Below, piece by piece: positions 18,401 to 42,247 of a stretch of DNA of 42,267 bases. Numbering within the stretch: position 1 is the stretch's first letter; every line of letters begins with the position of its first letter. The notes beneath the pieces were generated by a model. That model was not told where the DNA came from, did no database searches, and worked only from the letters and a program-made list of their open reading frames with translations. This DNA comes from a virus. Location: IMG/VR virus record IMGVR_UViG_3300033273_000608, positions 1-42,267 of that record; one strand, 5' to 3'. The position numbers and the translations under genes were made by a program.

Positions 18401-21400
18401 TGTCGAAGTTGATGAATATGTTGCGGGAAGTGGTTGATTTGTATATGGATTTTCTGGATAAGTCTTTGTAGGAACATTATATGCACCCTCTTTATGATTA
18501 GACTGTGCAACTCTAAAGGTTATACTAGCAGCAGTATTTGCAGTATCGGGTCCTAATCCAGTTTGAACCACTCTGCCAGTCACAGTTTCTCCTACTGTGA
18601 AGGTTCCTGCAACCATTTGGATCTCAAGTAGTTTAGGAACACAGTATTTTGTTACATCCTTTCCGTCAAAGAAGGCATACAAACGTGTAAGAGGTTTGTT
18701 TCTCTTCGAGACAAACTGAACATTTCTTGATCTCATGAACGGAATGAGATCTCTGCTTACAACTCTGTCTCCGACAGATGTTTGATCAAACTGCTCAGTA
18801 ACAGCCAATGTAGTTCCAGTTCTAGATTCAATTCCTCTTTGAACTGTTTCACGAACTTCCTCTCTAAACGTAGTGGTTGTTCTTGTGCCAAAAGCAGTTC
18901 TTCCTCTTCCTCCCCAAAGAACACCTCTCCACTCTCCACCTTGAGTTTCTGTTCTATTTCTAGTGTTGTTTATAACATCAATACCAGTCCAGTTTGTTTC
19001 CCATGAATCCCAAACAATAGGACCAAATCCGGTATTAGGGTCAATCTGACCAGCACTAACCATATTATTGAAGGTTTCTGCGTAGTTACCCTCAGTATTG
19101 ATGATTTTTGCTTCAAGTCTTGATTGGTCAACCCAGGTGTCAGTTGCAGGAGTCAGTTCCATTGTTCCTTGCCAGAAACTGATAAGGAATGGAGTTACAT
19201 TTTCAAATCTTGTAGCAAATGTTTGTGCTAACCACACTACTTCTGCATAATCAAGAGTTACAACATCATTATTACTTCTTACATTAATACCTTCAATCGG
19301 TGCAAAGTTAAGATCAGCTTCCGAATCTTGATTTACAACTGGACCAAAAATCATATCAACAGCAGTTGTATGATGCTTTGCTCTAAGTTCTTTATTCTTA
19401 AGGTCAAGACTATTCTTCAGTTCCACGTTTTGTTCTTGTGGTTGGAAAGAACCAAAGTTGTCAACAAAAAATCCAGATTTAAATCTATTCAATCCATCAG
19501 AATCTGGGACAAAAAGATTTGCAGTATTTGTCTCAAGGAGAGACAAGGTGGTATAATATTCAAGATTTCTGATTCTATTTTCAAGACGACGGATATCCGC
19601 CATCTTATATCCCTTATGCTCTACAAACGAGAGTCCAGCAGAGGCAGTTTCATAGAGATATGGAGGTAAAGTGATTGTTGCAATCTCAATAGCATTGTCA
19701 ACACTCTCAGGTTTTACAGGTCTCTCTGATGGTTCTCCATACTTGACCTGGAACGCTCCCTCTTTAGTTAAGAAGATTCTATCAATCCTACCAAGATAGT
19801 AAGAGAACGTGGTAAGAATAGATTCATCAGATGCTAAAGTGTTTGCTGCAGAATTGCCAGATGCATTGAAAGATCTACCCAAAAACTCAAGAGGAGATCT
19901 TGTCGATTCAGCAACTGTATAATCAGACACTCTGGGTCTAATGTCAATGATGTCTGTTAATCTCTTACCTCTAATAGCAGGAATATCTCTAACATAATCA
20001 AAAGTTTTATAAGATTCTACAGTAGTGATGTCACCATCATCTGTTGACTGGAAATATCCGTTAGAGAAATATACTTTAAGTTGCTTAGATGGTTCTGCAA
20101 CATCTGATTTTCTCTTAAGAACACCGATATTGTAAATCGTTCCCTCTTGACCATCATTGAAGATGTAGTTTGAGGACACCTCAAAACTTGCCGCATCAAG
20201 TGTTTGAATCACACCTTCAATGGCAGATTCGGATGATACAATATTTTCACCCTCTCTAAATACAATGTCATTTTTATAAACAAAAGAAATCTGGGAATCA
20301 GACAGTTTCTCTGCAACTATGGCAATAGCACCAGTTGTTTGACCTGTAAACGATTCACCTACCACAAACTCTGAAGTGGTTGTAGAAGCACTATTTAAAG
20401 CGGTAAATGTTGCCTTTGGAGCCGTTGCCTCAGATGTATCTGCAGATTCAAAAACCCCATGGATTTCAATAATGTCAGGGACATTTAATGAAAGTTGCTC
20501 ATCCTGAACTCTAGTTCCAAATGGATAATCTCCATAAGTAAGACCATCATTTAATGTTGTTGTCCCTGTGCCAGACGCACTTAACTTTGATTTATCAATA
20601 GTCAGGACATTGACTCTATTTTTGACTTTTTCTTTTGACTTTGGTTTTTCTTTCTTTAAGGTGGTAATGAAAGTTGCACCAGTGTTATCAGTTCCAAGAT
20701 TGAGTAAGTTTAAAGACTTGCCACCATCTGTAAAGACAAGTCTGTCAGAGGTGAGAACCTCTGTTGTTCCGTCCGACCTAATAAGGGCATATCTCTCTTC
20801 ATCAAATGGAAGGAAAGTTTCATTGTCACCTGCAGTTACTGCTGAGGAAAGTTGATTTCCTGAAATATTAACAGTAAACTCTTTTCTAATTGAAATACTC
20901 GCAGATGTGAGATCAAGAGTTGCTATATTATTTTTTGGGAGAGGAGTGAAGAGCGTATTGTCAGTCGAGGACTCTAACTTAGTCGTTAAAGTAGTAAAAT
21001 CTTGAACTTCGATTTGAGTTGCGACTGTACCTCCGATTGCAACTCCAGTTACAGTTGTGATACCTGCGATTGTTATGTGAGATGATCCAACGGAAACAAC
21101 TCTTGCAAAAACTGGATCATTAGTTGTATTACCCGGACGATTTACGTCTGAATAACGAACAAGATTATTTTCTTTGATACCTGTTGGGAATCTAGGGTTA
21201 GTGCTCCTAACAGTGCTTATTCCACTACGAGTCTCTGTGATGGTGGCGACACCGACAACTGATTGTGCAGACTGAATAGTATCAGCGTTGAATGTATATC
21301 CGGCTCCCACAACACCATGCAAAGACTTTACATCAGAGATGCCAAAGTTTGTGATTGCAACACCAACAAAACCACTTGCTACACCATTAAAGGTAAGAGG

Positions 21401-41160: not shown

Positions 41161-41189
41161 AGTATAACGTGTAATATGTAGTGTGTCAA
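41161..41189 (-). promoter_or_regulatory. Host-type promoter for the glycosyltransferase gene
   Basis: TTGACA (41184-41189) and TATACT (41161-41166) are separated by exactly 17 bp on the minus strand. The -35 box overlaps the TGA stop codon of the upstream 72-aa gene. The start codon at 41137 lies about 24 nt after the -10 box, leaving a very short leader. Confidence 0.7.
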
Positions 41190-41404
41190 TAACTATCACA
41201 CCCTTCTGGTTCTGTAGTGTTTGCCGCACCACCTCCTGGGACCACTCTGCACTCCTCATAAGACAAATCCTCAAGTTCATAGTCAGTCTTCATTAGACCA
41301 ACCATTCCCTTGAGGGTTTCCCATGTACTATTAAACTGTTCCTCACTTAGATTGTTATATAAACATTCCTTTTTCGCATAGATGTGATAAACCTTATCAG
41401 TCAT
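41186..41404 (-). CDS. 72-aa conserved phage protein
   Basis: A 72-aa acidic protein, MTDKVYHIYAKKECLYNNLS..., with EEQFNSTWETLKGMVGLMKTDYELEDLSYEEC as a helical middle and a Gly/Ala/Thr tail ending CDSY. It has three Cys. It resembles a short protein I recall as recurrent in T4-like cyanophages next to photosynthesis or tail genes, but the function is unknown. No Shine-Dalgarno sequence is seen; the ATG follows AAAAATTTTT. It lies 160 nt downstream of the promoter at 41571-41599. Confidence 0.75.
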   Translation of the reverse strand: MTDKVYHIYAKKECLYNNLSEEQFNSTWETLKGMVGLMKTDYELEDLSYEECRVVPGGGAANTTEPEGCDSY

Positions 41405-41543
41405 AAAAATTTTTGGGCGATTTTTTTATTATAAATGGATTCGCAATCCGCTTTATATATCCAGGTCGATCTGTCACCTCTGTAGGTTAGGGTAGTTAGG
41501 GGTTTTTATCACGCCGCCGCGCATAATAACAACGCCGCCCCCA

Positions 41544-41564
41544 AACACTGTGGATCACGGTGTT
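41544..41564 (-). other. Hairpin at the predicted transcript start
   Basis: A 9-bp stem with one G-U pair (AACACTGTG at 41544-41552, CACGGTGTT at 41556-41564, plus-strand reading) and a 3-nt loop. It begins 7 nt after the -10 box of the minus-strand promoter at 41571-41576, so it would form the very 5' end of the RNA. Such 5' hairpins can protect mRNA from decay. Confidence 0.5.
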
Positions 41565-41570
41565 ACTGAG

Positions 41571-41599
41571 AGTCTACCACATCACGCAGAGACTGTCAA
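41571..41599 (-). promoter_or_regulatory. Host-type promoter for the 72-aa gene
   Basis: TTGACA (41594-41599) and TAGACT (41571-41576) with a 17-bp spacer on the minus strand. The -35 box is perfect; the -10 box matches 4 of 6. Two copies of CACGCAGAG flank the -35 box (41583-41591 and 41606-41614), 23 bp apart, about two helical turns, as a regulator site might. Confidence 0.65.
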
Positions 41600-41614
41600 T
41601 AGCACCACGCAGAG
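41583..41614. repeat. Paired CACGCAGAG direct repeats around a -35 box
   Basis: CACGCAGAG occurs at 41583-41591 and 41606-41614, each followed within 3 bases by CTGT. The copies are 23 bp apart and bracket the -35 box of the minus-strand promoter. This could be a regulator-binding pair; no protein is known to bind it. Confidence 0.4.
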
Positions 41615-41672
41615 TGACTGTTAGCTAGGACTGCTAATCTACAATCGTTCGTTTACTCCTTCGTCGTAAACA

Positions 41673-41846
41673 TCACCAACGGACAGGTACACTCAGATCC
41701 TCTACATATGCCTCGACCTGTTCATCACCACCGAGGTCAAAGATATCCTCCCATGAAATCTGATGAGGATCAAAGTCACCGAGCACGTCAAGTTCCAGTG
41801 TGATTCTATAACGTTGCTTCTGTGCCTGACTGTAAACGACTGACAT
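41673..41846 (-). CDS. 57-aa acidic conserved phage protein
   Basis: From ATG at 41846 the minus strand reads 57 residues: MSVVYSQAQKQRYRITLEL..., then DVLGDFDPHQISWEDIF and VEAYVEDLSVPVRW. The GGAG Shine-Dalgarno lies about 9 nt upstream, and a TTGACA-N17-TATACT promoter precedes it. Both fix the gene and start over a longer frame on the same bases in another phase. The protein is acidic with a helix-strand pattern; function unknown. It resembles short early proteins I recall from cyanophages. Confidence 0.75.
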   Translation of the reverse strand: MSVVYSQAQKQRYRITLELDVLGDFDPHQISWEDIFDLGGDEQVEAYVEDLSVPVRW

Positions 41847-41873
41847 GATTGACTCCGTTGGTGTGACTTAGAT

Positions 41874-41902
41874 AGTATAGGGGACCTGAGAGATATTGTC
41901 AA
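41874..41902 (-). promoter_or_regulatory. Strong host-type promoter for the 57-aa gene
   Basis: TTGACA (41897-41902) and TATACT (41874-41879) with a 17-bp spacer, a near-perfect sigma-70-type promoter. The ATG of the 57-aa gene lies 28 nt after the -10 box. Confidence 0.75.
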
Positions 41903-41914
41903 TCTTCCACCTGT

Positions 41915-41922
41915 TATTTATA
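41915..41922 (-). promoter_or_regulatory. Perfect T4 late box TATAAATA
   Basis: TATAAATA on the minus strand, exactly the T4 late consensus, 13 bp upstream of the -35 box at 41897-41902. The 57-aa gene could thus be expressed both early and late. Confidence 0.55.
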
Positions 41923-41977
41923 AGCACGACTGATAAAAACACGATGTCAATCCCCACAAAAACTTATGCCCGCCCCC

Positions 41978-42006
41978 TTGACATTTCTCCGAGAGCGTGA
42001 TAGACT
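41978..42006 (+). promoter_or_regulatory. Plus-strand host-type promoter inside an inverted repeat
   Basis: TTGACA (41978-41983), a 17-bp spacer and TAGACT (42001-42006) on the plus strand. The -10 box is bracketed by the inverted repeat AGCGTG (41994-41999) and CACGCT (42008-42013), which could be an operator or form a hairpin. It points to the right, against all supported genes. No open frame follows within the window. Confidence 0.6.
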
Positions 42007-42145
42007 GCACGCTAAGATCACGACTCCCAGACACATTTATCAACCACTAATAATCACGCATAAATCACACTTAATACGCCCCCAAGTAACCACGAAGACA
42101 CCACAGATACACCACTAAGTACATCTTACATATAAAACGAAAGTA

Positions 42146-42153
42146 TATTTATA
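42146..42153 (-). promoter_or_regulatory. T4 late box TATAAATA in an AT-rich stretch
   Basis: TATAAATA on the minus strand in a 65-bp AT-rich segment. It would start a late transcript that reads through the non-coding region to the 57-aa gene. The AT-rich context makes a chance match possible. Confidence 0.35.
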
Positions 42154-42200
42154 ATAGCATTTATAAACGATTTTTATACATTTAGTGTAACGGTAGATAC

Positions 42201-42228
42201 AAAAAAAGGGAGGAAATGTGTCCCCCCT
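42201..42228 (-). terminator. Intrinsic terminator on the minus strand
   Basis: On the minus strand an 8-bp stem (AGGGGGGA with TCCTCCCT, one G-U pair, 42207-42228) with a 6-nt loop is followed by TTTTTTT (42201-42207). It implies that a minus-strand gene ends just right of it and isolates the 41-42 kb block from that gene. Confidence 0.75.
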
Positions 42229-42247
42229 ATCTTACACGAACGAACGA

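Follow-up and report, generated by a model that had tools for sequence, protein, structure and literature searches.

At one end of a 42,267-nt viral sequence (IMG/VR record IMGVR_UViG_3300033273_000608, positions 1 to 42,267; this whole stretch is referred to below as the window), a strong plus-strand promoter is directed against the neighbouring genes and into DNA that carries no gene, which raises the question of what such a promoter could serve. The initial annotation placed it within an inverted repeat and suggested that it may make a small or antisense RNA under the control of a repeat-bound protein.

A promoter directed into gene-less DNA

The features of the locus, by position in the window, are as follows.

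41673-41846, minus strand: small hypothetical gene of 57 aa to the left of the element, homologue of Bellamy gene 103 (DNA alignment to L001:5353-5529)
41874-41902, minus strand: divergent early promoter TTGACA-N17-TATACT, from the sequence and compared with relatives
41978-42006, plus strand: sigma-70-type early promoter TTGACA-N17-TAGACT, kept in relatives
41978-41983, plus strand: -35 box TTGACA
41994-42013, no strand: inverted repeat AGCGTG/CACGCT around the -10 box (arms 41994-41999 and 42008-42013), judged to be chance
41998-41999, plus strand: TG of the extended -10
42001-42006, plus strand: -10 box TAGACT
42007-42040, plus strand: predicted transcribed leader GCACGCTAAGATCAC...ACATTTA, kept in relatives outside the search pattern
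42085-42128, plus strand: four iteron-like units of about 11 bp (AGTAACCACGA, AGACACCACAG, ATACACCACTA, AGTACATCTTA), seen by lag-11 autocorrelation; counterpart of the DnaA-box array of relatives
42107-42206, no strand: AT-rich stretch (23% GC), candidate DNA unwinding element by base composition
42146-42153, minus strand: late-promoter-like octamer TATAAATA for the minus-strand genes, inside the AT-rich stretch
42207-42228, minus strand: intrinsic-terminator-like site at the far edge of the element, also in Bellamy

The promoter at 41978-42006 is present and opposes the neighbouring genes, both as first described; it agrees with 10 of 12 consensus positions and has a TG ahead of its -10 box. 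The predicted start site, taken from the position of the -10 box, lies at about 42012-42015, and the first plus-strand start codon beyond it is at 42185, leaving none for 170 nt; no hidden plus-strand gene was found in the window downstream of the promoter, where every frame is of 14 aa or less, in agreement with the frameless stretch originally reported. Sites of the form TTGACAN16-18TANACT number four in the window as against 0.18 expected from shuffles, and all four fall within 41161-42006, the one at 41978-42006 on the plus strand and the other three on the minus strand. These three (41161-41902; TTGACA-N17-TATACT/TAGACT) stand ahead of small genes at the window end. The first reading had noted neither the conserved leader and the 11-bp iterons (42085-42128) nor the AT-rich stretch and how widely the site is conserved. 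Elsewhere in the window, a minus-strand gene at 39459-40133 matches phrog_3704 (E 2.5e-115), labelled ferredoxin / auxiliary metabolic gene, a label which disagrees with the annotation of the S-SM2 gene at the same position as phosphoribosylaminoimidazole synthetase (purM).

The inverted repeat and the transcript

The inverted repeat around the -10 box is present in the window with 6/6 matching arms, but it is kept in the same register at 6/6 in 0 of 76 relatives. The mean number of matching positions between the arms (2.96) equals the value obtained after re-pairing arms between relatives, and there is no covariation. The repeat was rejected as an operator on this absence of conservation, and control by a protein bound to it is left unsupported for the same reason.

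A plus-strand non-coding transcript is likely to be made at the promoter, judging from the promoter, extended -10 and leader that are kept, and to this extent the proposal of a small or antisense RNA stands. A structured small RNA finds no support: folding of the predicted transcript gave a z-score of 0.06, no better than shuffles, and an Rfam search returned no match above the gathering score, the best (sraA, E 0.55) being far below it. The predicted transcript is G-poor, and not of the purine-rich composition by which stable R-loops are favoured.

Conservation among T4-like cyanophages

The window resembles T4-like cyanophages, its best DNA match over the promoter end being Synechococcus phage Bellamy (Kyanoviridae), followed by S-SM2. 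The promoter and leader (GCNCGCTNAGATCAC...ACATTTA) are found at the equivalent place, and against the gene direction, in Synechococcus phages Bellamy, S-SM2 and SynMITS9220M01; the element lies at about 58.1 kb in S-SM2 and about 73.4 kb in Bellamy. The promoter is kept far more widely than this, since a pattern made of the promoter and CGCTNAGATCAC matches at least 119 IMG/VR stretches, as against 0 for a scrambled control in which the leader motif was reversed. Conservation also extends to positions that the pattern left free, namely the TG of the extended -10 (76 of 77 sequences), a GC ahead of CGCT in the leader and, some 25 nt into the leader, a block reading ACATTTA. One pattern match, in the 578-kb contig L060, lies inside coding-like GC-rich sequence and was rejected as chance.

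A sequence-only model built from the promoter and leader was run on 19 whole named cyanophage records, of which 16 gave matches at E < 1 and 15 at E < 1e-5, with one strong copy per genome. The match in Syn9, at about 52.6 kb, is weak and confined to the leader (E 0.0024), and the whole records of P-SSM2, S-PM2 and S-RSM4 gave none. Extra weak matches in S-SCSM1, S-SM2 and S-SKS1 are without the boxes described below and were set aside as chance. Forty-one loci have a downstream ORF, and in 40 of these the longest one runs on the minus strand; in S-8S55, S-8S53 and S-BM3, a plus-strand gene begins about 100-150 nt past the element. In S-8S55 and S-8S53 the element is immediately followed by a plus-strand 2OG-Fe(II) oxygenase gene (L126:3156-3899 and L128:2774-3517).

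DnaA boxes downstream of the promoter

The sequence TTTTCCACA is a published cyanobacterial DnaA box, adjoining dnaN (PMC4674748). Of the 76 non-redundant elements, 39 carry TTTTCCACA or TTATCCACA boxes within the 300 bp that follow the promoter and leader, with 97 copies in all and both strands represented, so that the family as a whole carries the cluster of host-consensus boxes expected of an oriC-type origin; 38 of the 39 have two or more boxes, most having only 2-3. The density of TTTTCCACA downstream of the promoter in the 76 elements is 3.8/kb, compared with 0.016/kb over the remaining 580 kb of these loci, an enrichment of more than 200-fold, and its 87 copies in the elements compare with at most 3 in shuffles. 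Among 16 named genomes, each with 0-8 copies in the whole genome, the elements hold 12 TTTTCCACA boxes where 0.052 would be expected. In seven genomes that only the model had identified, they hold 6 boxes against 0.029 expected, the box-positive ones being S-8S56, which is close to a phage of the training set, and Syn9, DSL-LC02 and S-SKS1, which are not. S-SKS1 has a repeat of about 23-25 bp in five copies and, after it, three DnaA boxes at 21-bp intervals. P-SSM2 and S-RSM4, which have no match to the model, have no clustered DnaA boxes either, and S-PM2 has a box cluster and AT-rich DNA without the conserved promoter.

The S-PM2 cluster, at 19177-19333 (L322:1178-1334), comprises three TTTTCCACA boxes and AT-rich DNA overlain by annotated tRNA genes for Asn and Leu, at a place where ARAGORN finds no tRNA. 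The tRNA annotation looks wrong, and the stretch looks like an origin element whose promoter has diverged.

Of 36 pairs of same-strand neighbours among the boxes, 25 are spaced by 20-22 bp and 6 by 42 bp, which places them on one face of the helix. Such phasing is the behaviour of arrays of protein-binding sites and not of conserved RNA; beyond the leader, the sequence is not conserved as RNA, whereas the phasing of the boxes is.

On the host side, 16 Cyanobiaceae genomes were tested, and 12 of them have TTTTCCACA within 700 bp upstream of dnaN, at a density of 1.7/kb; on the dnaN side, 30 kb contain no copy. In one of these genomes five boxes, in two groups with internal spacings of 12, 22 and 12 bp, lie between dnaN and an apparent threonine synthase gene. 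The phage array thus matches the host origin in sequence and, in one genome, in spacing. The two differ in that the phage element is set among phage genes and includes a strong promoter and a leader, and in that about half of the phage copies, including that of the window, carry other repeats in place of the boxes. It should be kept in mind that the dnaA gene of Synechocystis can be deleted (discussion in PMC4674748), and the dependence of picocyanobacterial replication on DnaA is uncertain.

Variable repeat arrays

The element of the window contains neither TTTTCCACA nor TTATCCACA, and those of Bellamy and SynMITS9220M01 contain no exact TTTTCCACA. In place of a host-consensus cluster, the window has 11-bp units with a CCAC core, whose period stands out by autocorrelation at lag 11 (z 4.3 against shuffles); across 19 modules of this iteron class, the mean autocorrelation peaks at lags 11, 22 and 33. 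DnaA boxes are found in 0 of 11 strictly defined members of the class, and several relatives read ACTCCACAG. The units of the window may be either degenerate DnaA sites or sites of another protein.

Other relatives carry further arrays. In L105, L059 and L031, ATTCTCAA/TTGAGAAT boxes replace the DnaA boxes downstream of the promoter, and ATTCTCAA arrays with two or more copies are found in 11 elements, which would make these possibly a third initiator class. The array at L015:900-1100 consists of TGTGTTACA/TGTAACACA repeats and not of DnaA boxes, and may be served by a different initiator. The differences among elements indicate that promoter and leader are fixed, and that it is the array between the leader and the AT-rich DNA which changes.

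AT-rich DNA and nucleotide skew

The stretch at 42107-42206 is among the most AT-rich of the window, only 47 of its 42168 100-bp intervals being lower in GC. Of 74 loci, 36 have their lowest-GC 100 bp no more than 400 bp downstream of the promoter, compared with 4 expected, and in four complete genomes the GC minimum of the element is within the lowest 0.01-0.05% of 100-bp intervals. Part of the AT-rich stretch may serve a minus-strand late promoter, as it includes TATAAATA, which we take to be late-promoter-like from the late-promoter consensus of T4-like phages. No switch of GC skew was found at the element in the four complete genomes, whose coding is nearly all on a single strand, and skew was dropped as support for an origin. 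The features that are conserved downstream of the leader, phased box or iteron arrays and an AT-rich stretch, are features of DNA, and they point to a replication origin and not to an RNA regulator.

A candidate origin of replication

In T4, oriE is an origin with an early-mode promoter and 12-nt iterons, while oriF and oriG combine a promoter with an A+T-rich unwinding element and an R-loop primer; oriE, oriF and oriG lie near switches of transcription direction and nucleotide skew, which is a tendency and not a requirement (PMC3016281). The cyanophage site has, at the level of sequence, a promoter directed into the putative origin, DNA downstream of it that is A+T-rich by base composition, and direct repeats of the oriE type (11-bp period in the window), a likeness to oriE in layout. 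It differs from the three active T4 origins in not being near a switch of transcribed strand or skew.

A second comparison is with the iteron origins of plasmids and lambdoid phages, in which repeats that bind an initiator lie beside AT-rich DNA and transcription activates the origin. The cyanophage element likewise has its array beside AT-rich DNA; unlike these origins, it has no recognised initiator gene beside it, and the sequence of its boxes switches between relatives.

With an anatomy of promoter, repeats and AT-rich DNA as in T4 oriE and oriF/oriG, we think it probable that the site is an early-promoter-linked replication origin of a T4-like cyanophage, one which resembles T4 oriE and, in many relatives, imitates the host oriC, and which would be opened by transcription together with a box-binding initiator. 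A more specific proposal, to which we give slightly less than an even chance, is that the origin is modular, with a fixed early promoter, leader and AT-rich DNA and an exchangeable array of initiator boxes set between these or next to them, such that host oriC boxes in about half of the elements allow host DnaA to start phage replication, and the other phased repeats, including those of the window, are presumably read by other initiators.

Promoter, leader, boxes, spacing and composition are read from the sequence, and from them we infer transcription, DnaA binding, opening and priming in the following way. The host-type sigma-70 early promoter would fire soon after infection, against the direction of the genes and into the non-coding stretch, and the transcript would cross the helically phased boxes and run into the AT-rich DNA, where transcription and the box-bound initiator would together open the duplex. 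For about half of the relatives, this initiator would be the DnaA of the host; in the window, the 11-bp iterons would be bound by host DnaA as degenerate sites or by another initiator. The RNA, or primase, would then prime a first round of replication, after which recombination-dependent replication would take over.

Several observations count against an origin: the lack of a GC-skew switch, the lack of an exact TTTTCCACA box in the elements of the window, Bellamy and SynMITS9220M01, the G-poor transcript, the plus-strand gene behind the element in S-8S55, S-8S53 and S-BM3, the failure to find the element in P-SSM2 and S-RSM4 and its conserved promoter in S-PM2, the sharing of part of the AT-rich DNA with a minus-strand late-promoter-like site, and the uncertain dependence of picocyanobacterial replication on DnaA.

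The chief rivals of an origin are a promoter for a DnaA-regulated RNA and a sink for DnaA. In the first, which we regard as unlikely, the promoter would be a regulated one that makes a non-coding or antisense RNA, or that in some phages serves a plus-strand gene, and DnaA or other regulators would use the boxes as operators. The strength and conservation of the promoter agree with this, as do the plus-strand genes of the three phages just named, but the RNA lacks structure and a start codon for 170 nt, the longest ORF behind the element is nearly always on the minus strand, the promoter is well separated from the boxes downstream of it, and past the leader it is the phasing of the boxes and not the RNA sequence that is kept. 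In the second, which is considerably less likely still, the boxes would titrate host DnaA and thereby halt host replication, at a site that is not the phage's own origin. Their match to host oriC boxes in sequence and spacing would suit such a sink, but the 2-3 boxes of most positive elements are few for titration, about half of the elements carry other arrays, and a sink needs no conserved promoter, leader or AT-rich stretch. That the promoter is an ordinary early one whose downstream gene was lost in the window's lineage is very improbable, since, despite the presence of three further early promoters of this type within 820 bp, the gene-less layout, leader and position are kept across many phages, a relic would not retain the leader, and chance does not account for the box arrays.

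Implications for cyanophage replication

In the ocean, T4-like cyanophages count among the most abundant viruses. In the open-licence literature we found no reports of a cyanophage replication origin, of transcription start sites, or of DnaA boxes in T4-like phages, and an earlier description in subscription journals is possible. The reading of the site as a phage origin would provide a precise, single-copy origin candidate in well-studied phages, in S-SM2 and, more weakly, in Syn9. The element is a candidate for a T4-like, promoter-linked origin whose initiator sites are exchangeable and often host-like. The review of T4 replication, in which DnaA goes unmentioned, does not describe for T4 the borrowing of a host initiator (PMC3016281). 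The element suggests such borrowing by a T4-type phage, and it bears on the question of the role of the T4 oriE iterons.
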